Assembly: GCA_009192285.1 (NCBI GenBank)
Contig: WBVU01000008.1
Location: forward strand, 1,746,370 to 1,810,369
Direction of reading: 5' to 3'
DNA length: 64,000 bases
Source: Morchella semilibera
Lineage: Eukaryota; Ascomycota; Pezizomycetes; Pezizales; Morchellaceae
Positions 12,537 through 47,283 of the stretch are shown here, piece by piece. How positions within the stretch are numbered: position 1 is the stretch's first letter; the number at the start of each line of letters is the position of its first letter. The notes beneath the pieces were generated by a model that ran no database searches, was not told where the DNA came from, and worked only from the letters and a program-made list of their open reading frames with translations. Both the position numbers and the translations under genes were made by a program.

Positions 12537-14117
12537 TTACAACTCATCATGCTCTTCTTCCTCTTTATCTTCAGCAACCAAACCTGCCGGCAGCTTTTCC
12601 TTCTTAACATCACCAAGCCTAACACCATCCAGCCACGCCAAGATCTCGACTTCATTTGTGACGTCGCCCTCGAATTTTCTGACCCAGTTCCTTCGCGCAT
12701 TCACGGCCACGATAGCGCCTGAAGAAGACTTATCTAGGTCCAACTTTTCCAAAAGACCCATGGCATGCTCTGAAGAAGACACGAGCTTGTAAAGGTTAAA
12801 AGCGCTGACGGTCCTATGCAAAAGGGTATTGTAAACACTGGTAAAGGTTTCAGACTCGGCCGGGGTGATAGCCAAAACGCAAGTCTTAGACTTGGGAGAG
12901 AGGCATGCCTCAGTCAGGGCAGTTTGGTCAGAAAGAATGGGAACTTCTACTTTAACTGCTCATGTGTCAACTTTAACATTTTGAGTCATAAAGGGTTAGG
13001 GTTATTCGTACGCTTTTCTGGCTCGGGAGCCTTATCCTCAATTGGAGCACCCTCGTCTTTGACCTCTACTACAATCGGCTGTTCTTCAGTTTTCTTGGCC
13101 CCTGCATTCTTTAGTTTAGGAGAAGCTTCAGGCTCCTCCTTCACAGGAGGTGCGATTTGGCTAAAAAACGCAAACAAATCGTCCTTCGCGATCTTCCCTG
13201 TATAGACAATACTCTCCTTGTCTCCGCCAGGAAGGACCACCACAGTCGGGAAATTGTCAATTCCGAAGGCCTCAACAGCCTCCGCCTCTTTATCCCGAAT
13301 TTGAGCAAACGAGATGGATCCCAAAAAGTCGATGGCAAGAGCTTTCCAGAGCGCGCTCGTAACGCCCTTGTTAGTGAACAGAATCGCCTTAATAGTCTCG
13401 TTATTGTTTGAGAGAAATTCATCGAGCTTAGCGGAGGTAACACGAGTAACATGATTTGGTATACGTTCAGCGACAGCGTCAGAAATAGCTTTTGCAGATC
13501 GAGGTCCCTGGTAGTCTATGATTGGTTAGCAACAGACTTTTATGACAACGGAGGGGTCTAATAAACAGACCTTCAACAGATGGCTTTCCCTTCTTCCCAG
13601 AGGGCTTAAAAATCTTCAGTGTCGGAAAGCCCTGAACTCCCTGCTGCGAACACAAATTTTTGTTTTTTTCCTCGTCGCAATTGACTGCAGCAACCTTGGC
13701 AAAGCCTTTCAGCGACTTTGCAACCTTCTCATAATCAGGCTTGAGATTTTTGCAGTGCCCACCTGTAGGTTAAGTTAGCGCTTATAAATGAGTGTTGAGT
13801 AGCGGGCTACTAACACCATGGAGCAAAAAACCTTGATCAGAGCGCAGTTCAGTCAGCCTCTATGTCTGAAGTGGTAGAAAACCATGGCACAGGGTGGAAA
13901 TTACTCTACAACCTGCATTCCGGTAGCTAGATATTAGTTTCTATCTGAACTTTGTGACTTCACGAAAACTCACAGCAGCATGGTCAGATTGCAGAATCTC
14001 CTTCTTGAATCCCTTTTCGTCAAGATTTAGAACCCCACTTGTCTTCGAGTAGAAGGCACTAGCACCGTGCGCCATTGCCAAAAAGGCAACGAGAGTAACA
14101 TCTCTGAGGAGAACCAT
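12537..14117 (-). CDS. ER protein disulfide isomerase, one thioredoxin active site, HDEL tail
   Basis: Thiol oxidoreductase of the ER lumen that forms and rearranges disulfides in secreted proteins. Six exons: 14117-13974, 13912-13905, 13831-13815, 13762-13571, 13515-13012, 12958-12537, giving 428 aa with every junction in phase. Residues 1-21 are a signal peptide. One thioredoxin domain follows with VVEFFAPWCGHCKNL, active site Cys57-Gly-His-Cys60, and the cis-Pro motif GVQGFPTLKI. A second, redox-inactive thioredoxin-like segment (FGIDNFPTVVVLPGG) and a Glu/Lys-rich linker precede the C-terminal domain. The chain ends HDEL, the ER retrieval signal. Layout is closest to Mpd1/P5-like fungal PDIs rather than classical Pdi1, which has two CGHC sites. 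Exons 2 and 3 are only 8 and 17 nt and encode VVE and FFAPWC; without them the catalytic motif is lost, so simple gene finders would break this gene. Confidence 0.92.
13815..13831 (-). other. Microexon (17 nt) of the PDI gene
   Basis: Encodes the last base of Glu51, then FFAPW and the first base of Cys57. The acceptor is CAAG with a CTGAC branch-like site about 25 bases upstream; the donor is GTTAGT and the next intron has GCTAAC before its CAG. The WCGHC catalytic motif is cut inside its first Cys codon. Confidence 0.85.
13905..13912 (-). other. Microexon (8 nt) of the PDI gene
   Basis: GTTGTAGA, flanked by ATGCAG on its 5' side and GTAATT on its 3' side in the minus-strand sense. It supplies Val49, Val50 and two bases of Glu51, exactly the residues expected before FFAPWC in PDI proteins, and it restores phase between exon 1 and the 17-nt exon. 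Confidence 0.85.
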
Positions 14118-16126: not shown

Positions 16127-17185
16127 TCACTTTTTGTTGTTACCGGTGGTAATCGCAAAAATGAACTCGCGTACCTGAAAAAATGCGTAAAGAGCTGGAA
16201 AAAAAAGTAAACCAATTCCCGTAGCCCACATAGCAAAAGTTGAAAATGACTTTACTGATACATGATATCCCAAACCTCCAGGTGTTGACTCTGCAGCTAA
16301 AGAAGCCTGCATCGCCGTCAAAACCACAGAGACACTACCAAAGAAAAACAGGTATGGCGCCATAAACCGACTGAAGTATTGCAGATATTGCGTGTATGTA
16401 TCAAAATAGTTCCACCCATAACCGAAAACCTTGGTGTAAAAATTGAGTCTAGAAAGTCGTAGCTCACCGTATACGTACCTGTCGGTAACGTTCGAGCTGG
16501 GTAGGTTCCGGAAACATTGAATAAACTTACACCACCTCACCCACGTAATATACTCGTCCTTCGGCAGTAATCCTTTTTCCTTTGCTATTTCGAAATCGGA
16601 TTCGTGGACGATCAGCTTCGAGTAGGTACTCAGCAAGCCGTTCGCAGCCTTGTGAATCCCAGATGACCCTCCGGATCCAGATATATATCTATAGAAAAAG
16701 GCGTAATTGAGGAGATACCGGGGGACCGGTTTGATGAATATTTGGTCATAGTACCAAACGAGGTGGAGTGTAGGGTCCTCAGTGATAATTATCTGTCGGT
16801 TTCTAATTGCCTGACGATGCAAGGGGTTGATATTGTTCTTACTAGAAAGTAGCCAAAGGTGATGGCTCATGCTATCCAGTAGCTCCGTTGTGAGATCTTT
16901 CTTAAGGAATTCCATCACTTCAGCCGTCTGGTTCTTAAGCTGATACATCGGCTGCCCAGGGATGAATGGAGTATCTTTGTATAATTCCCGGGCTTCATTG
17001 TTCCGTACGCTCTTCTCATTCCATAATAGAGTATCCCCCTCCGGATGAACAGGTCCTCCCGAGCCTCCATTTGCGTCCGTCAGTTCTACATATTGTATTA
17101 AATCGTCAACTAACTCGTCTTCCGGTAAAAAGCAACAAGCACCTAGTTTCCAGTCCGGGTCTGTGTATGAAGGATGACTTGACAT
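16127..17185 (-). CDS. Uncharacterised membrane protein, 352 aa (Pezizomycotina family)
   Basis: Uninterrupted frame from the ATG at 17185 (MSSHPSYTDPDWKLGACCFL). The first 250 residues are soluble and mixed; the middle holds DEYITWVRWCKFIQCFRNL and RYVYGELRLSRLNFYTKVFG. Two hydrophobic segments lie near the end, about 270-292 (PYLFFFGSVSVVLTAMQASL) and 315-340. The pattern of an R-L-x-R-L-N block, then an aromatic Y-x-x-Y-x-x-F stretch, then a helix ending in VLTAMQxxL is one I know from many unnamed proteins of filamentous ascomycetes; function is unknown. No signal peptide or intron. It stands 0.5 kb from the transposon cluster and shows no sign of disruption. Confidence 0.85.
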   Translation of the reverse strand: MSSHPSYTDPDWKLGACCFLPEDELVDDLIQYVELTDANGGSGGPVHPEGDTLLWNEKSVRNNEARELYKDTPFIPGQPMYQLKNQTAEVMEFLKKDLTTELLDSMSHHLWLLSSKNNINPLHRQAIRNRQIIITEDPTLHLVWYYDQIFIKPVPRYLLNYAFFYRYISGSGGSSGIHKAANGLLSTYSKLIVHESDFEIAKEKGLLPKDEYITWVRWCKFIQCFRNLPSSNVTDRYVYGELRLSRLNFYTKVFGYGWNYFDTYTQYLQYFSRFMAPYLFFFGSVSVVLTAMQASLAAESTPGGLGYHVSVKSFSTFAMWATGIGLLFFPALYAFFQVREFIFAITTGNNKK

Positions 17186-17704
17186 GAAAAAGATAGAAAA
17201 TGGTGATTATTATATTATTTTAATAGACTTCGTCTTCGGGGTGTCGAAAGTTTGGACGAGCTCAGGCCTGGTCGAGGCGCCAGCTCATGCATACATTTAA
17301 TATCTGGGGCTTCGCAAAGAGGCGGAGTTCTTGGCGCACATGAATGTATCGAATATATCCCCCCCCCCCAATCACAGTGCCGCCATATATGCAACAAGTA
17401 CTCAGAACCCGACGACAATTGGTTGGGAATGTGTGAGGCTGGGGCCAATAAGACCTGCCAAGAGTTCCTATCTTGAATTGGGGGGAAAAATTTATCAGAA
17501 CCTTTCCAAGATCCTCATCAAAAAATCCGGAAAAGATTTATCTATCAGTACCTTCTCTATATGCTATTTGGGTACAAATTTGACTGTGTAGAGATAACTT
17601 TCATCAGGCAGCAGTAAAATTGAGGGCTAAGTTTTGGCCTCTTGAGTTTCTTGGGGTATTTGGGTACATGGTTCCGGGTGGGGCCAACTTGGCAATTAGT
17701 AATA
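17186..17704. other. Intergenic between the 352-aa gene and the nested transposons
   Basis: Promoter side of the 352-aa gene. A C9 run lies at about 17361-17369. Nothing else is recognised. The DNA element begins at the TA at 17703-17704. Confidence 0.5.
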
Positions 17705-18072: not shown

Positions 18073-18198
18073 CAGCTCCTTTCCCGCTATTCTACCAATT
18101 TTTGAAATTAACCACCATAATCTGTGAAGCAACCGCGTTACACAAGCACAAAAGTCTTTAGAACTTAGGCTTCAAGCATCACCAACCCCCTCGCAACC

Positions 18199-19701
18199 AT
18201 GCCCCCACCCTCTCAAGCAATGCAGAAAGCCTTCGACTCCATGCAAGTGGGCCTAATCGATGGCGAAATTACTGATAACACATTCACTAACCCCATCGGC
18301 GACCTCGCCATGAAAATCTTCGACGACACCAATACCTCTGACGACGTCAGGCTTCTCCTCACGCTTATCCTAGGCATAGTCAAACAGACCACCATCCTAA
18401 CCGGAGAAGTGGCCAGCCAAACACAATCCATCGATATCCTATCCGAGGACATCCACAAGCTCAAGGAACAGCGGGCAACCCCTGAAATCAATAACCGTTT
18501 CGACAGGGTCGAAACCCTTCTTCAGGAAGTTAACACCCAAAAAACACCCAACCCCCAACAGCCACAGCCACCACAAACCCAGGCAAAACAACATAAGCAA
18601 CAACAACAACCACCTCAACCACCACAACAACGCCAAACCAGACCCCCCCCCGCAGTTACCGAGAAAAAGTCCTATCTTCAAGCAGCCCAAGAGAATCTTA
18701 ACACTTGGGAAACAGCATCACCGAAGAAAAAACGTCAAAGCAAGAAGACCACCCCCGCTACAGAGCAAGCAAAGGCCCTTCCTGCCGCCCAACGCCGCTT
18801 CTTCACAACCAGGACCTCTCCACAACCAGTACCAGAAAGCGACCGTGTTGCCGCCGAACTCTCAGTAGCCCTCGCACAAATGCTAGCCAGGAATAAACAA
18901 GTTCACCCAGTCACAGCCCTCTCCGTCAACATCAACGCCAAAGGTTCCGTGTCGATTCTCCCACACCACACAGTCTCATCCGCCACCTACGCCCTCTGGT
19001 ACGAAGCAATGACCGCGATTGTCAACCAGAAAATTGGCAGCACTGAGAACCCATGCACATGCTTCCGTCCTGCCCCTACCAACGTCGACATTGCCATCCA
19101 CGGCGTCCCTCTATACAACCTCAAAAATAAAGAGACACTTAACGACAACTTCCCGGAAATCATTCGCCTAGCAACAGGAATCACACCCTTTGCCTGTCGA
19201 TTCCTTAACAAAGATGATGATCTCCGCAATCTTAAAGCCACCTCCTCAATAATTATCACAGTCACATCAGAGGAATCTACTGTTATCGGCTCCTCAATTA
19301 GACTCTTCTCCAGACCCAGAAAATGCCAAATCATGTGGTCCGCCACCCCCTCCACCCAATGCCGCAACTGCTACGCCTTCGGACACGCCACCCAAGGGTG
19401 CAAACAAGCAAAACCAACCTGCCCCGTCTGCGCCAAAGAACATACCAGAGCACAACACTCATGCCCAATCCCAAGCTGCAAAGGAAGATGGTTTGAAGCC
19501 CTGGGATGCTGTGATGTTACAAAAGCAAAATGCACCAACTGCAATGGAGGACACCAAGCAACCTCCCGCAACTGCCCAGCCCTCCTTGCCATTATCGAAG
19601 CCAATCAAAAGAAAACGGAAAAGACCACCCCAACTACACCCATGGAAGCAGCTATGACAGATGCCCCCCAGGATCAATCAAATCCCATTACACAATTCTA
19701 A
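18199..19701 (+). CDS. LINE ORF1: nucleic-acid-binding protein, 500 aa
   Basis: Gag-like protein expected to bind the element RNA and form the ribonucleoprotein with ORF2. Residues 50-112 are helical with a heptad-like pattern (VASQTQSIDILSEDIHKLKE), 113-150 are a Gln/Pro-rich linker, and 155-215 are basic. The C-terminal part has three knuckles: Cys388-x2-Cys391-x4-His396-x4-Cys401, Cys408-x2-Cys411-x3-His415-x6-Cys422 and Cys445-x2-Cys448-x3-His452-x6-Cys459, plus an extra Cys pair (437-438). This set of zinc knuckles is typical of ORF1 in Tad/I/jockey-like LINEs. The stop TAA is followed after one codon by the ORF2 ATG in the same frame. Confidence 0.92.
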   Translation: MPPPSQAMQKAFDSMQVGLIDGEITDNTFTNPIGDLAMKIFDDTNTSDDVRLLLTLILGIVKQTTILTGEVASQTQSIDILSEDIHKLKEQRATPEINNRFDRVETLLQEVNTQKTPNPQQPQPPQTQAKQHKQQQQPPQPPQQRQTRPPPAVTEKKSYLQAAQENLNTWETASPKKKRQSKKTTPATEQAKALPAAQRRFFTTRTSPQPVPESDRVAAELSVALAQMLARNKQVHPVTALSVNINAKGSVSILPHHTVSSATYALWYEAMTAIVNQKIGSTENPCTCFRPAPTNVDIAIHGVPLYNLKNKETLNDNFPEIIRLATGITPFACRFLNKDDDLRNLKATSSIIITVTSEESTVIGSSIRLFSRPRKCQIMWSATPSTQCRNCYAFGHATQGCKQAKPTCPVCAKEHTRAQHSCPIPSCKGRWFEALGCCDVTKAKCTNCNGGHQATSRNCPALLAIIEANQKKTEKTTPTTPMEAAMTDAPQDQSNPITQF

Positions 19702-19704
19702 AGA

Positions 19705-22700
19705 ATGAGTACTACAACCAAAACACACTCCTTTCTACGCATAATACAGCACAACTGCGCCAGCAGTAATAACGTTCTTATCTCACTCTTTTCGCTTAAA
19801 ATGGTGCAAGATGCCCATATTATAGCAATTCAAGAACCTCCTCTTAAAAATGGAATTCCGCTTACAGTCCCTACTTTTACGCTTATTTCCCCAACCCCCA
19901 CCCAAAAAGAAGATAAAATATCTACATGCATTTATTTAAACAATGCTCTACTTGAAAAAAATTCTTTCCTTGCTATTCCTTCACACAGAGGCGATACTAT
20001 AAATGTTAACCTCGAATGCAAAACAAGCAATAATACTTTTACTTCACTCAGTATTTATTGCATCTATAATCGTCAATTAAAACCCAACGCTCGTTCACAC
20101 AATCCTCAGGATCTGTTTATTCGTACCAGTACCCCCACTATAATACTAGGGGACTTTAATATTCATCATCCAAACGCAGACCCACTTCGCTCCTTTAACC
20201 AAAGAGAATTAAATCTATCCAATCCATATTTCAACACGGCAACCCGTCGCGGTTATACACTTATCAATAACCCCGGCACCTATACCAGATTGTCCCCAGA
20301 TCAAAAGAAAAGGCACGGAGTTATAGATCTGGCATTTGCCAACACACAAGCAGCCAAATTTATTAGAAAATGGCTCCCTATTTCACAAGCAACAGGGTCA
20401 GATCATAAAGCCCTGGCCCTCTCCCTACAAATACCCGCAGCAGATTTCGAACCCTTCCAAGTTCACAACTGGAAACTCACAGATTGGAACCTGCTGAACC
20501 CAAAGCTTCAAAACTTCACAATCACCCCCTGCCCAATGCCTAATGCAATTGACGACTGGTTTGATAAAAACTTCAACACACTCGTCGATACAATTAAACA
20601 CGCTACTCCTCTCAAAACCATATCCAAATGGTCCAAGGCATGGTGGAACCCAAACATCAGCCAACTCAGAAAAATCTACCACTCAGTACATAGAGCCTAC
20701 CGCAAAGGCAACGCCCCACCATTCGAAATGAAAGCTGCCAGAAATGCCTATTTTAATGCTATTAAAAAGGCAAAATCAGATCACTGGAACAACTATATAT
20801 CGAATGCCCAAACAAAAGACGTCTGGAGGATCAAGAAAATGGCCTCCAGATCGGAAGATAAAATTCCAACACTCCCAAACTCACCAACTCCCATGCTTCT
20901 TAACCAGAACTTGGTGAATGCGTTTTTCCCCCCCAAACCAGACCTAATTAACCCCCTTCCCATATTAGACCCCAACGCCCCAGCTATTACACCACAAGAA
21001 ATACGTAATGCGCTAGGCCCTACATCAAATCTCTCTGCCCCAGGCCCAGATACTATTCCATACCCAGTATGGAAAAATATCCATAATATAAATCCTCTTA
21101 TCATTACAACACTTCTGAACCAACTCCTTACACATGGTTATCACCCACTGGCCCTGAAAAAAGCCAATGGAGTGATACTTGCAAAACCCAACAAACCCGA
21201 CTACACCCTACCCTCATCCTACAGAGTGATAGTCCTACTACAAACCTTCTCCAAGATTCTGGAAAAGATTGTAACCACAAGACTGGCCAATATTGCAAAA
21301 GCGATCGGCATTCTCCACCCACATCAATGCGGATCAGTAGCAGGTCTCTCTACAGCAGACGCTGCTACCTGCCTAATAAACGAAACCCGAGCCATGCAGA
21401 CAGCAAAACTCAAAGTCACAACACTCTTCCTAGATGTTAAAGGAGGCTTTGACCACGTCCTCAAAACCTCGCTCAAAGACATTATGGAAAAAGCACATGT
21501 TCCAAAATATATCGTTAACTGGGTTCTATCCTTTATGTCGGACAGATATATCACACTCCTCTACAAAGGGTCTCCAAAGGTGGCCCGCCCTATACAAGTC
21601 GGCGTCCCACAAGGATCACCAATTTCTCCACTTCTTTTCCTTATATATATTAGCTTTCTACACAACTACGACCCACACCCAGGCATATCGCTCTCCTATG
21701 TCGATGATCTAGCGATAACAGTAGGGTCACAATCCTACCAACAAAATATCACGATTCTGACCCAACACTACAACAAGCTAATTCAATTAGCACATCCCCA
21801 CAATATTTTCTTCTCAGTCGCAAAAACTGATTTAATCCACTGGAGAACCCCCAGGGACCGCTCCCAAATATGCTATTTACCAATCAGTCTAGAGGGTCAT
21901 ATAATCCAACCCTCAAGCCAGGTAAAATGGATAGGCTTCTGGCTGTCCTCTTCACTCAACCCCAACGAACACTATAAACGAAGACTTGCCGCAGCAAGGG
22001 CCGCCTTCGGTATAATCCAACGCTTTTCCTCTGCAGGGAAAGGCCTGTCATCACAAAATTGCAGAAAAATCGCCCTTATGGCGATAAGACCTATGCTTAC
22101 GTACGGAGGCGCAGTCCTCACCCCAACATCAGCAATTAAAGAAATGAATACATTTTGGAATTCAGTTCTCAGATGGACTACAGGGTGCTTTAGATCCACG
22201 AATCAACGCGCACTATGGGCAGAAGCCGGCTCACCCCCACTAGACCTCTACCTACACTTTCTGAAATGCAAATATGCTATCAGAATTCTACAAGCCCCCC
22301 CCATGGCCAACCCGGTCACGGGCAGGACCTCGCAATCCTTCCCCACTATATCACCTGACAGATTCTATACCCATACACTTCTTTTAAAAGCACTACCCAA
22401 CCCCCCTAAGAAATGGAACTCCAATGCAATCAAAGGAGTTAACCACCTCCCCATCGAACACCTTTGTTCAATTATCAGACCGCTTATCGAAGAGGGCGTC
22501 CCCCCCATTAAGATGGCCGCCAGAGCAAAGTCTCAACTCATAGCCAATTGGAACTACCACTACCCACCACCAGTTTACTACCCATATCCCCTAACAACTA
22601 CGCCGCCCTTTTTTACCAATCTGCACAAATTCGTTGCATCTCGCATACACCAAATGAGAGCAGGCAAGAGTTACCTACGCGGACAAAAATCATGGATCAA

Positions 22701-23016
22701 TATTCACCTCCCCTCTCTATGTACCAGATGCAATTTGGAAGATGAGACACCCTCACACATTATTCTGAGATGTTCAAAAATTGAAAACCTCAGGCCATTG
22801 GAAATTGCCTCCGCCACCTCTCTCTCAGAGATTTGGTCAAACCCACACCTCTCCACAATTCTCAGCGGCTTTATTGTGGCCGCGAGAATTAACTACCCAA
22901 TCCCACACGAGATCTCACCCCCACACTCAGGGACATCAATTTCTACCCTGACCACAATGTCCACAACCGAATCACAAATACTGGGGCTCCCATTCAACCC
23001 AATATACGCGTCTTAA
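19705..23016 (+). CDS. LINE ORF2: endonuclease and reverse transcriptase, 1103 aa
   Basis: The enzyme that nicks target DNA and copies the element RNA onto it. The APE-like endonuclease covers about 1-240, with Asn17 in QHNC, Glu44 in IQEPP, Asp150 and Asn152 in LGDFNIHHP, and Asp233-His234 in GSDHKAL. The reverse transcriptase covers about 430-720: APGPDTIPYPVW, SSYRVIVLLQTFSKILEKIV, FLDVKGGFDHV (575-585), GVPQGSPISPLLF (633-645) and YVDD (665-668), so all catalytic Asp are present. A C-terminal knuckle starts at Cys1006 (CTRCNLEDETPSHIILRC). No RNase H motif is visible between them, unlike some Tad/I members. Translation probably depends on termination at ORF1 and restart, since only AGA separates the stop from this ATG. 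Confidence 0.95.
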   Translation: MSTTTKTHSFLRIIQHNCASSNNVLISLFSLKMVQDAHIIAIQEPPLKNGIPLTVPTFTLISPTPTQKEDKISTCIYLNNALLEKNSFLAIPSHRGDTINVNLECKTSNNTFTSLSIYCIYNRQLKPNARSHNPQDLFIRTSTPTIILGDFNIHHPNADPLRSFNQRELNLSNPYFNTATRRGYTLINNPGTYTRLSPDQKKRHGVIDLAFANTQAAKFIRKWLPISQATGSDHKALALSLQIPAADFEPFQVHNWKLTDWNLLNPKLQNFTITPCPMPNAIDDWFDKNFNTLVDTIKHATPLKTISKWSKAWWNPNISQLRKIYHSVHRAYRKGNAPPFEMKAARNAYFNAIKKAKSDHWNNYISNAQTKDVWRIKKMASRSEDKIPTLPNSPTPMLLNQNLVNAFFPPKPDLINPLPILDPNAPAITPQEIRNALGPTSNLSAPGPDTIPYPVWKNIHNINPLIITTLLNQLLTHGYHPLALKKANGVILAKPNKPDYTLPSSYRVIVLLQTFSKILEKIVTTRLANIAKAIGILHPHQCGSVAGLSTADAATCLINETRAMQTAKLKVTTLFLDVKGGFDHVLKTSLKDIMEKAHVPKYIVNWVLSFMSDRYITLLYKGSPKVARPIQVGVPQGSPISPLLFLIYISFLHNYDPHPGISLSYVDDLAITVGSQSYQQNITILTQHYNKLIQLAHPHNIFFSVAKTDLIHWRTPRDRSQICYLPISLEGHIIQPSSQVKWIGFWLSSSLNPNEHYKRRLAAARAAFGIIQRFSSAGKGLSSQNCRKIALMAIRPMLTYGGAVLTPTSAIKEMNTFWNSVLRWTTGCFRSTNQRALWAEAGSPPLDLYLHFLKCKYAIRILQAPPMANPVTGRTSQSFPTISPDRFYTHTLLLKALPNPPKKWNSNAIKGVNHLPIEHLCSIIRPLIEEGVPPIKMAARAKSQLIANWNYHYPPPVYYPYPLTTTPPFFTNLHKFVASRIHQMRAGKSYLRGQKSWINIHLPSLCTRCNLEDETPSHIILRCSKIENLRPLEIASATSLSEIWSNPHLSTILSGFIVAARINYPIPHEISPPHSGTSISTLTTMSTTESQILGLPFNPIYAS

Positions 23017-42354: not shown

Positions 42355-45300
42355 GTTCTTCGGTACCAACATATCCCGAGCTCCGAATCCGGAACATCAC
42401 CATTCAAAGTCGGCAAACTGGCGCCGTTACCTACTTCGCACGCGGAAGCTGCAGCTCCACCAGCTGACAATACTCTTGCTTCCACCGGTAACAATTGTAA
42501 CACTCTATCACCGGAAAACAAAGAGACTCAGGTCACGGGAAACACCAGATCCCCCGATAGCTCTTCTTTAAATTCTTCCAACGAATGGTCCAAGAATGCG
42601 TATGAGAAGGAGTTAGCTGGCCCCCCATCTGCACCGGCAGTCGACATAGAGGGTGCTGGCGCGGCGAAGAAGGAGAGCGCGTGGAGAAAGAAAAGGCAGC
42701 TGAATCCGCTACGATGGCAAGAAATTCCACCGGTGCCAGAGAAGCAGAGTGTGAGCGCGGAAGAGGCTGCCGGTTTCTTCAGTAAGCTTACATTAAGCTG
42801 GATAGGGCCGCTGATGACGGTTTGTCTCCTATTTTAAATTGAAATTTCGCTTATTGGTTACTGACATTGATATTCAGGTTGGATACTTACGACCTCTTGA
42901 GCCTACCGACATCCCACATGTTGCGTCAGATAGATCATCAGCTATAATTTCTGAAAAACTTACGGCTTCGTTTAACAGAAGGCGGGAGAGGGGTGATAAA
43001 TATCCTCTCCTCTGGTCCCTCAACGAAGTCTTCAAGAAGGAGTTTTGGTTCGCTGGGATCTGTAGGATTACTGCAGATGTTATTTTAGTTCTTGCACCTT
43101 TTGTCCTAAAGTAAGTTAAACTGAGATTTAAAAGTAAATGTAAAGACTCTAACTTATGGATAGATATCTCATTCGATTCGCCGTTGAAGCCTATGTTGCT
43201 AAGCAAACAGGATCTCCAGGCCCCCATATCGGGCGTGGTGTCGGTCTCGCTTTCGGTATTGCGCTCATGCAATGTGTTGCCTCTCTCTCCGTCAACCAGT
43301 TCATGTACCACAGTATGATGGTAGGTGGCCAATCTCGTGCAGGATTAATCGCGATGATCTATTCAAAGTCCCTCAGAATTTCTGGCCGAGCTCGTGCTGG
43401 CGGCATTGATCCGAGCAAACCAGTAGTACCCCCAACTGCAAAGGAGCTCAAAGCAATGAAGGAGAAAAAAGGCCGTGATGATGAGATTGGTTGGTCCAAT
43501 GGGAAGGTTATGAATTTGATGAGTACAGATACATACAGAATCGATCAATGTGCTGCTTGGTTTCACATAATGTGGACCTCCCCTATCCAGATAATTATCA
43601 CGCTTATCTTACTTATCATCAATTTATCATATTCAGCACTTGCCGGATTTGCCCTCCTTTGCTGTGGTGTTCCCATCCTCTCCATGGTGGTCAAGACTCT
43701 GGCCAAACGACGCCGCAAAATGACAAAGATTACTGATAAACGGGTAGCCCTAACCCAGGAAATTCTGACGGGTGTCCGTTTTGTCAAGTATTTTGGCTGG
43801 GAGAAATCGTTTTTGTCACGTCTAGAAGAACTTCGTCGCCGTGAGATCAACGCAACCCAGTTTTTGCTCGGCATTAGAAGTGCTGTTACAGCTGTAGGGT
43901 TATCGCTGCCTGTTTTTGCCAGTATGTTGGCGTTTATCACCTACTCACTCACCGACAATTCGCTTGATCCTGCTTCTATCTTCTCTTCATTGGCACTTTT
44001 CAATCAACTAAGAATGCCCTTGAATCTACTACCCATGATCGTTGCCCAGGCCATCGATGCGTGGGTTTCATTACAGCGACTTCAGGAATACCTTATCTCC
44101 GAAGAAATTAAAGATGAGGCGGAGGTCGACAATAGTACTATCCACGCAATTGAGATCTCTGGCGGCGAGTTCACATGGGAAAAATCTATGAATGATGCCG
44201 AGAAGTTTCAGGGGGAGAGAACAAAAGCTCAACGGAAACAAGACCGGAAACAACGAAAACAAGATAGAAAGGACGAAGCGGCAAGGGACAAGGAACGTGA
44301 AGCACAACAGGAAACCGGGTCGCTATCTACGGATGGTACCCTAGAACCGTTTAGGCTTAAAAATATTGACCTTCAGGTTGGGCGTAATGAACTCATAGCC
44401 GTTGTCGGAGGTGTCGGGAGCGGGAAGACATCATTGCTTGCTGCCCTCGCCGGAGATATGCGGAAGACCAGTGGGGTCATTAGACGTGGAGCAACAGTTG
44501 CATATTGCCCACAATATGCCTGGATTCAAAACGCTTCTGTCAAAGATAATATTCTCTTCGGCCGTGATTTCGACGAGTCCTGGTACGAACAGGTTGTTGA
44601 GGCATGCGCTTTGCAGCAGGATCTTGATATGCTGCCCAATGGCGATGCTACCGAAATCGGAGAACGTGGTATTACGGTGTCCGGTGGACAGAAACAGCGC
44701 TTGAATATTGCAAGAGCTATCTATTTTAATGCTGATATCGTGCTGCTCGATGATCCGTTGTCGGCGGTAGATGCGCATGTCGGGAAACATCTTTTCGATA
44801 AGGCAATCTGTGGACTCCTGAACAACAAATGTAGGATCTTGGCGACACATCAGCTACATGTCATCAACAAGGTTAACAGGATTATCTGGATGGAGGAAGG
44901 CGAGATTCAAGCTGTTGGCACATACGATAAGCTTATGGAGACAAATCCGGCATTTGCTGAGATGATGGGCGAGATCGCGACAGAGAATGAGGAGGAGAAG
45001 AAAGCTGAGAAGGGAGATGGAGAGGAAGAGATTGAGGAAGTCGACGAGAAGGAAAAGAAGACCCTCCAGCAACCGAAAGCCTTAATGCAGGCTGAGGAGC
45101 GCAATGTCAGCAATGTTTCTTGGAAGGTCTACGAGGCGTATATCAAAGCTTCCGGAAGTATTCTTGTTGCACCACTCGTTGTCTTTATCCTTTGTCTTTC
45201 CCAAGCAACAAACATCATGACTACAATGTGGCTTGGATATTGGACGAGTGATAAATATGGACTATCGAGAGGAACCTACGTGAGTGAACGAACCCTAACC

Positions 45301-47283
45301 CTAACCAATTATAGTAAAAGTGCTGACAAGGGTAATGATCAGATTGGTGTATTCGCGGGATTGGGAGTCGCACAGAGTCTATTTGTGTTTCTGTTCTCCC
45401 TTTCTTTAACACTTGCCGGTACGAAAAGTAGCAGGGTACTTATGCAGCGTGCAATGACGCAAACACTGAGAGCCCCAGTGTCGTTTTTTGATACGACTCC
45501 TATCGGTCGAATCGTAAACCGGTTTTCGAAGGATGTCGATGTTATGGATAATAACCTTACAGACGCTATTCGAATGTATTTTTTTACCCTTGCTAGTACG
45601 TTGCCCCCGAAGAAATGTGCCGTGTTCGACTACTAATTCTTCTATTAGTAATTACGTCCGTCTTCGTTCTCATCATTGTCTACTTCCATTACTTCGTAAT
45701 CGCTCTTGTTCCTCTCGCCATGCTCTTCTTATTCGCTGCTTCCTACTACCGTGCCTCTGCGCGTGAAGTAAAGCGTCATGAATCTGTGCTCCGCTCCATC
45801 GTTTACGCCAAATTTGGTGAAGCCCTCTCTGGAACCGCCAGTATTCGTGCATATGGCCTCCAAGAGCGCTTCAAGCAGGAGATCGACAAAGCTATAGACG
45901 GCATGAACTCTGCATACTTCATCACCTTTGCAAATCAGCGCTGGCTATCCCTTCGTCTTGATGTAGTTGGTAACCTACTTGTCTTTACAACAAGTATCCT
46001 CGTTGTAACCTCTCGGTTTGACGTCAACCCCAGTATCTCTGGAGTGGTCCTATCATACATCCTGCAGATTGTCATGATGTTCCAATGGATGATTCGCCAA
46101 CTTGCAGAGGTCGAAAACGCTATGAACGCTACTGAGCGCATCCATCACTATGGCAACCACCTTCCGTCAGAAGCCGAGCTGCACAAGGGTGCCATCCGCC
46201 CTGCATGGCCTGAGAGTGGAGAGATTGTCATGAGAGATGTGAAAATGAGGTATAGAGATGGGCTGCCACTGGTCCTCAAAGGTTTAAACATGCATGTCAA
46301 AGGAGGTGAGAGAATCGGTATCGTTGGCCGAACTGGTGCGGGGAAGAGTTCAATCATGAGTGCATTATTCCGCCTGGTAGAGCTTACTGAGGGAAGCATC
46401 ACGATTGACGGTATTGATATCTCTAAAATTGGTCTTCATGACCTCCGCAGTAAGCTAGCGATTATCCCGCAGGACCCCACGCTTTTCCGCGGCACGATTA
46501 GGAGCAATTTAGACCCATTCAACGAGCGCACAGATGAAGAGCTCTGGAGTGCACTCCGCCAGTCCAATCTCGTTGAAGAATTAGCCGACGGTACAAGCGG
46601 TGGTAGAATCACATTAGACGGGATTGTGGAGGAGGAGGGGATGAATTTCTCTTTGGGCCAGAGGCAGCTCATGGCGTTGGCAAGGGCACTGGTAAGAGGT
46701 AGCAGGATCATCGTGTGCGACGAGGCCACAAGTAGTGTGGATATTGAGACAGATAGAAAGATTCAAAAAGCGATTGTGGAGGGATTTGAGGGGAGGACGT
46801 TGTTGTGCATCGCGCATAGGCTGAGGTATGTCAATTTCTCTCTTCTTATCCCCTTTTGCAAAATACTATATTTTTACTTGCTCCCGGACTTTCTCTGTGG
46901 TGCAGTCTCGTGGGGGCTTGTTTTTGTTTCACTCGCTTTTATATACCCATTCAGTACAAGTGTACCCCTACTTTATTTGTGCCACGGTACTGGGTACTGC
47001 TACAGGCTGTTTCACCTCAACCATGTATTGCGTCGAATGTCTCGGAAAAGCACATCCTAGGACCCCATACCAATAAACCTTGGGAATCCTGTAGCTAACG
47101 GTAATCTTTTTTTTCTCCTACAGGACCATCATCAAATACGATCGAGTTTGTGTACTGGATGACGGGCATATTGCTGAAATGGATACCCCATTCGCATTAT
47201 TTGAGAAAGAGGGAGGCATATTTAGGGCCATGTGCGAAAGGAGTAAAATTAGGAGGGAGGATTTCTTTGGAAGTGATGAATAA
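42355..47283 (+). CDS. YOR1: ABC transporter, ABCC subfamily, Yor1-like (start exon unresolved)
   Basis: Full-size multidrug/organic-anion exporter of the plasma membrane or vacuole. Visible exons: (open from 42355)-42819, 42878-43110, 43164-45279, 45343-45595, 45649-46825, 47124-47283, about 1467 codons. Order: charged N-terminal tail with LNPLRWQEIPPVP and AAGFFSKLTLSWIGPLM, membrane domain 1, NBD1 (Walker A GGVGSGKTS; VSGGQKQR; LLDDPLSAVD), an acidic linker, membrane domain 2, NBD2 (GRTGAGKSS; FSLGQRQLM; VCDEATSSVD). It lacks the extra N-terminal membrane domain of Ycf1, so it fits Yor1. The fourth intron (45280-45342) is 63 nt, free of stops and in frame, so it can be mistaken for coding; related proteins continue directly from GTY to IGVFAGLG. 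The first exon segment has no in-frame ATG; the nearest upstream ATG is at 41941. The last intron is unusually long (298 nt). Confidence 0.9.
45280..45342 (+). other. In-frame, stop-free intron of the ABC transporter gene
   Basis: GTGAGT donor, GCTGAC branch-like site and GATCAG acceptor; 63 nt, a multiple of three with no stop. It contains CCCTAACCCTAACC. Removing it joins GTY to IGVFAG as in Yor1 homologues. Keeping it would insert 21 residues (SERTLTLTNYSKSADKGND and flanks) in a loop of membrane domain 2. Confidence 0.75.

Follow-up and report, generated by a model that had tools for sequence, protein, structure and literature searches.

Two predicted microexons of 8 and 17 nt at the active site of a P5/PDIA6-like protein disulfide isomerase gene in Morchella semilibera

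The window, that is the whole 64,000-nt stretch of Morchella semilibera DNA that was analysed, carries on its minus strand a six-exon gene for a P5/PDIA6-like protein disulfide isomerase (PDI), which spliced together gives a single open frame of 427 aa (Table 1). The product matches PF00085 in a single stretch (111.3 bits), the PDIA6-like C-terminal family PF24541 (PDIA6_C; 97.9 bits, cut-off 27) and the NCBIfam model TIGR01126 (pdi_dom; 121.2 bits versus a cut-off of 107.2). Its thioredoxin domain carries CGHC, one such site; the N-terminus is hydrophobic, as judged by eye, and the C-terminus, read directly from the translated frame, is HDEL. Human PDIA6 has a second active thioredoxin domain. 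Such a domain is absent here, since PF00085 is matched only once and no second CxxC was seen by eye in the middle region. We read the product as a single-active-site, ER-retained P5/PDIA6-like isomerase, and the PF00085 and PF24541 matches bear out the PDI identity proposed in the first-pass annotation. Searches for relatives gave none among 26 pattern matches in a viral contig collection and none among 303 in a prokaryote genome collection, and a DNA search of the gene's own genome returned only the gene itself. The odd exon structure is the one thing that speaks for a pseudogene, or for noise in a gene no longer correctly spliced. Such decay is extremely improbable in view of the open frame maintained through six exons, both domain matches, the HDEL terminus and that search of the own genome, which brought up no other copy.

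Elsewhere in the window lie a gene with DUF6601 (PF20246, 261.2 bits), a non-LTR retroelement and an ABC transporter. In the retroelement, an ORF with CCHC knuckles, recognized by eye, precedes one for an endonuclease-reverse transcriptase (PF14529 and PF00078). The transporter is spread over two overlapping long ORFs, with ABC_membrane and ABC_tran in the first and the second assigned by eye.

Table 1. Features of the PDI gene and of its surroundings (positions within the window)
Feature	Position	Strand	Description
PDI gene	14117-12537	-	P5/PDIA6-like, six exons
Exon 1	13974..14117	-	Proposed ATG (picked by eye) to ..SDHAA; ends in phase 0; hydrophobic N-terminus
Intron 1	13913..13973	-	61 nt, GTGAGT..ATGCAG; CTAAT ~22 nt from 3' end
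Microexon 1 (exon 2)	13905..13912	-	8 nt, GTTGTAGA; codes V, V and two bases of E
Intron 2	13832..13904	-	73 nt, GTAATT..ATCAAG; CTGAC ~22 nt from 3' end
Microexon 2 (exon 3)	13815..13831	-	17 nt, GTTTTTTGCTCCATGGT; last base of E, FFAPW, first base of C
Intron 3	13763..13814	-	52 nt, GTTAGT..CTACAG; CTAAC ~13 nt from 3' end
Exon 4	13571..13762	-	Remainder of CGHC up to SVE
Intron 4	13516..13570	-	55 nt
Exon 5	13012..13515	-	End of thioredoxin domain, middle region without CxxC, linker
Intron 5	12956..13011	-	56 nt
Exon 6	12537..12955	-	PDIA6-like C-terminal domain, HDEL and stop at end
DUF6601 gene	16127-17206	-	
Non-LTR retroelement	18169-23016	+	
ABC transporter	43153-47060	+	

The term microexon is used here for an internal exon of some 3-30 nt that has a splice site at each end. 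Two exons of the PDI gene have this size and these borders, with flanking AG and GT dinucleotides and CTRAY motifs. Both had been proposed before, at 13912-13905 (8 nt) and 13831-13815 (17 nt) of the minus strand, and both were recovered there, with AG before and GT after each, as claimed. Three introns thus fall within 25 coding nucleotides of the active-site strand. The further claim that the active site is assembled from three exons holds for the longer motif VVEFFAPWCGHC, which does span three, but not for WCGHC, which spans two, with W and one base of C in the 17-nt exon and the remainder in exon 4. The reading frame accounts for the smaller exon. The FFAPW frame of the 17-nt exon needs a phase-2 end upstream, which rules out a direct joint with exon 1 at 13974. 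A suitable end is provided by the 8-nt exon GTTGTAGA, which together with the next base spells VVE.

The splice sites can be compared with those of other genes of the same genome, in which 75 loci (L001-L075) were aligned with a home-made spliced aligner. Forty conserved genes were kept (score of at least 240, identity of at least 40%, identical proteins counted once); the PDI gene (L006) and a TigA-like PDI (L003) fell below the survey score limit and lie outside the 40. These genes contain 135 introns (minimum 42, median 72, IQR 61-97 nt), a sample into which introns 1 to 3 of the PDI gene (52-73 nt) fit. A splice-site matrix was made from 77 introns of at most 200 nt whose neighbouring aligned exons each span 36 nt or more; it is slightly circular, because the introns on which it was trained come from an aligner that favours consensus sites. 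Relative to these 77, donor and acceptor stand at percentiles 82 and 23 for intron 1 and at 65 and 74 for intron 3. Intron 2 is the weakest of the three (percentiles 25 and 8), and its weak ends make partial retention, or skipping of the 8-nt exon, possible. A branch-site-like CTRAY is found in all three introns and in 56 of the 77 used for training. The seven rival donors that were checked all lie at or below the 16th percentile, but two rival acceptors, at percentiles 23 and 56, are not weak. As a side observation, exons 2, 3 and 4 (13912, 13831 and 13762, minus strand) all start with GT right after the acceptor AG. Each of these acceptors therefore adjoins a potential donor; the one at exon 2, GTTGTA, has a lower score than any of the 77 donors used for training.

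Competing structures were enumerated between positions 14010 and 13700, with up to three introns of at least 40 nt, GT or GC donors and AG acceptors, and scored with a profile of 11 thioredoxin domains from which this PDI gene was left out. Among 46,650 splice paths, 2,835 are stop-free through the start of exon 5, and the two-microexon structure has the top score of these open paths (104.6 bits). Ranks 2 and 3 (101.3 and 100.6 bits) retain the same two microexons and use GC donors at 13976 and 13979. A further four paths, all GT-AG, lie between 96.0 and 99.7 bits, and three of them have a different second exon. With GT donors only, the best two-intron path reaches 93.8 bits and the best one-intron path 69.3 bits. 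The first-pass annotation had called the two-microexon structure the only arrangement that yields the motif. It is the best arrangement, but 'only' is too strong, since other open paths exist at lower scores.

Two of these paths correspond to explicit alternatives. If only the 17-nt exon were real, exon 1 would extend to a donor at 13950 (GTTCAG) and join that exon directly, yielding SDHAAVSFREVTKFFAPWCGHC. Such a gene has one microexon fewer and keeps the frame open over the whole protein (432 residues). However, it scores 93.8 instead of 104.6 bits with the profile and 83.6 instead of 97.1 bits with PF00085 over the N-terminal region, adds five residues to a core strand, relies on a donor at the 3rd percentile of the 77 introns and needs a 119-nt intron, all of which makes it very improbable. 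The second alternative replaces the 8-nt exon by a different one, for example by a 1-nt exon at 13905 reached from a donor at 13969 (GTTTTC), yielding SDHAAVKFFAPWC. This path is the best GT-AG competitor whose second exon differs (99.7 bits). Its acceptor TTGTAG (23rd percentile) is at least as strong as the one used by intron 1, and a Fusarium gene gives a reported precedent for an exon of 1 nt (PMC12940212). Yet the path lies about 5 bits lower than the 8-nt structure, its donor is at the 4th percentile and it makes the strand one residue shorter, so that a second exon of this kind is hardly to be expected. A stwintron was considered and rejected, since each of the three introns has its own donor, CTRAY and acceptor, and omission of the 8 nt breaks the frame.

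How often such a structure arises by chance was estimated by replacement of the DNA. When the whole interval was swapped for real 211-base stretches of the window, the best score in 1,500 trials was 90.1 bits. Over the same 140 residues, the scores are 105.1 bits for the real structure and 93.3 bits for the best one-microexon rival, and none of the 1,500 unrelated stretches reached even that rival. When the swap was confined to the DNA that separates exon 1 from the 17-nt exon, 104.6 bits or more were obtained in 20 of 3,000 dinucleotide shuffles and in 15 of 3,000 genomic 142-mers; in an initial run, two of 400 shuffles equalled the protein score alone. Protein and splice-site scores were both matched in none of the 3,000 shuffles and in one of the 3,000 genomic 142-mers, and their sum in one and three, respectively. 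For the 8-nt exon, chance thus amounts to about 1 in 150 to 200 on the protein score alone and to about 1 in 1,000 or less with the splice sites included. Collectively, the profile and splice-site controls make it practically certain that the 17-nt exon is real, and leave the 8-nt exon as a well-supported prediction.

When single PDI or thioredoxin queries were aligned pairwise with the spliced aligner, exon 1 and the 8-nt exon of the PDI gene were both missed. This was so for two PDB segments run with a high intron penalty and again in the survey with a lower one, where the locus was given exons of 22 and 158 nt. Profile-based enumeration recovered exon 1 and the 8-nt exon where these alignments failed. 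Since the pairwise method missed the 8-nt exon, the survey, made by the same method, probably undercounts microexons.

Even so, 11 of the 97 internal exons in the 40 genes are of at most 20 nt according to the aligner. Each was masked and its gene realigned, a cost of at least 20 alignment points being counted as support. Seven of the 11 are supported in this way: a 13-nt exon in a Rab11-like gene, a 20-nt exon with the P-loop GESAVGK in a Rab5-like gene, exons of 10 and 20 nt in an eight-exon Ras-like gene, the 6-nt exon ATATGG (IW of IWDTAG) in a second Rab5-like gene and a 14-nt exon in each of two cyclophilins. Four are doubtful after masking. A 5-nt CDC42 exon (L029) was discarded as an artefact of the 350-nt intron limit, the DNA reading AVTVM across a GTAAGT donor and a long intron, and exons of 18 and 5 nt in L015 and of 10 nt in L068 gained less than 6 points and were not counted. 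Two side observations concern the small GTPase genes. The 6-nt exon of the Rab5-like gene (L034/L035; G000:C9 1513661 and C10 1513547) is flanked by introns of 68 and 65 nt and lies in IWDTAGQ. The Ras-like gene (L023; G000:C19 4892551, minus strand) has at least eight exons, and five of its six internal ones measure 10 to 29 nt.

The TigA-like PDI mentioned above (L003, also in L009) is the second gene here with a microexon at a PDI active site. At the first active site of this gene, a 13-nt exon CCATGGTGTGGCC (G000:C23 1629572-1629584, minus strand) encodes PWCG and contributes one base to the H codon. The introns on either side measure 60 and 62 nt, and with the query used the alignment loses 8.4 points when the exon is masked. 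Judged by these alignments, it is not unusual in this genome for a tiny exon to fall within a conserved motif. The second TigA-like domain, one domain of L002, the canonical PDI and three thioredoxin-like genes also have an intron near the active-site motif. At four sites, namely L004, L010 and the second domain of both the canonical PDI and L002, no intron lies within 25 nt. Counted by hand, and leaving aside an L010 intron 29 nt away, the 12 thioredoxin-domain sites have 11 introns no more than 25 nt from the Trp codon of the active site or the codon equivalent to it, where 4.1 would be expected (Poisson P 0.003); the sampled genes have about 6.7 introns per kb. Without this PDI gene, the count is eight in 11 sites against 3.7 expected (P 0.04). 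Three sites share one intron position and two share another; they are therefore not independent, and no hotspot is claimed.

Fungal microexons are already known, and the PDI case adds a new example. In the literature searched, of which coverage was partial, neither fungal PDI microexons nor two adjacent microexons at a PDI active site were found. In Fusarium, CYP621A has a 1-nt exon with read support, common to 20 orthologues (PMC12940212). Like the PDI exons, and found by similar reasoning, it is required for the frame and a conserved motif, but it is far shorter. In Trichoderma virens, Xlr2 has a 20-nt microexon whose expression depends on glucose (PMC11121469). It is frame-shifting, as those of the PDI gene are, and holds key cysteines of a functional domain, where the PDI exons form part of an active site. 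The Fusarium exon is backed by reads and 20 orthologues and the Xlr2 exon is glucose-dependent, whereas the PDI microexons are predicted from sequence. Closest in size is the 8-nt microexon gg/cac/gag of CYP5141A1 from Phanerochaete chrysosporium, in the I-helix motif AGHETT (PMC12940212). It has the same length, is fungal, lies within a conserved motif and is not a multiple of three; it belongs, however, to a P450 of another fungus, and the PDI gene has a second microexon adjoining. In the P450ome of P. chrysosporium, the shortest exon is 6 bp (PMC1184071). There, as in this genome, many tiny exons occur among short introns, but in one gene family, whereas here they occur in Ras-type, cyclophilin and PDI genes. 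The suggestion that 8 nt is close to the fungal lower limit was therefore not confirmed, given the published 1-nt exon of Fusarium and 6- and 8-nt exons of Phanerochaete, and the 6-nt exon in the same genome. In the Ascomycota, rtnA of Aspergillus niger and Neurospora shows exon skipping beside a stwintron (PMC6616335). It resembles the PDI gene in having small exons (15, 24 and 33 nt) amid short introns, but involves nested introns, whereas PDI introns 1-3 are separate and dropping the 8 nt breaks the frame. In plants, work on QSOX places an intron near the thioredoxin CxxC (PMC3616962). Further background is available on wheat PDI genes (PMC3017771), Cryptococcus (PMC3990503) and exon and intron definition (PMC2614967). 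The PDI gene is a candidate case of an exon of <10 nt within an enzyme active-site motif. In annotation, a gene finder blind to tiny exons would leave both this PDI and its TigA-like paralogue without a catalytic site.

Skipping either microexon shifts the frame, as had been claimed: a stop follows after 62 residues if the 8-nt exon is skipped, after 59 if the 17-nt exon is skipped and after 65 if both are, and none of the three products keeps a Pfam match at E 0.001. If intron 1, 2 or 3 is retained instead, the stop comes after 58, 51 or 57 residues. The first-pass annotation went further and suggested a possible switch on ER oxidative folding, in which regulated inclusion of the 8- or 17-nt exon would set the amount of active PDI, skipping reducing it through an early stop. 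The early stops after skipping, the weak splice sites of intron 2 and the reported glucose-driven 20-nt microexon of Xlr2 (PMC11121469) are compatible with this idea. But retention of any of introns 1-3 has the same outcome; since an early stop follows all six mis-splicings, it gives no evidence for a switch. Furthermore, unrelated genes of the same genome have microexons, and no special function is needed to explain them. Read from the proposed start, the skipped forms would offer no useful alternative protein of the kind expected for an Xlr2-type switch, since translation ends at 59-65 residues and the products lack any Pfam match at E 0.001. Control by decay of skipped PDI forms is possible, but a microexon switch is unsupported and very improbable.

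A simpler reading is that this is a P5/PDIA6-like PDI with ordinary, constitutive microexons between short introns, spliced via intron definition, to which we give a probability of about 0.8. The exon content, frame and splice motifs of the structure can be read off the DNA. In a host genome of dense short introns, three ordinary U2-type introns (61, 73 and 52 nt) would leave exons of 8 and 17 nt between them. Each of introns 1-3 would be recognized across itself, so that no complex would have to bridge the tiny exons and the three introns could come out one at a time. Both microexons would be included constitutively, and mis-spliced forms with an early stop would most likely be degraded. Ascomycete introns are reported to be nearly all small, with donor and acceptor pairing over the intron that they enclose (PMC6616335); a short exon is then no obstacle in principle, which makes constitutive inclusion the simpler reading for a genome whose gene content and intron style point to a fungus, probably a filamentous ascomycete. 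One could go beyond constitutive microexons and propose that the two ER disulfide isomerases, one with 8- and 17-nt exons and the TigA-like one with its 13-nt exon, have jointly tuned inclusion of these frame-shifting active-site microexons that sets the oxidizing capacity of the ER via decay of skipped forms, but this is very doubtful. If inclusion were regulated, splicing would exert control on ER folding.

A minor observation concerns the assembly. The contig pairs C9/C10 and C12/C13 (G000) have matches at nearly identical coordinates on both members and are possibly duplicated or haplotype contigs; the two copies of the Rab5-like locus, L034 and L035, are identical over 3,147 bases.
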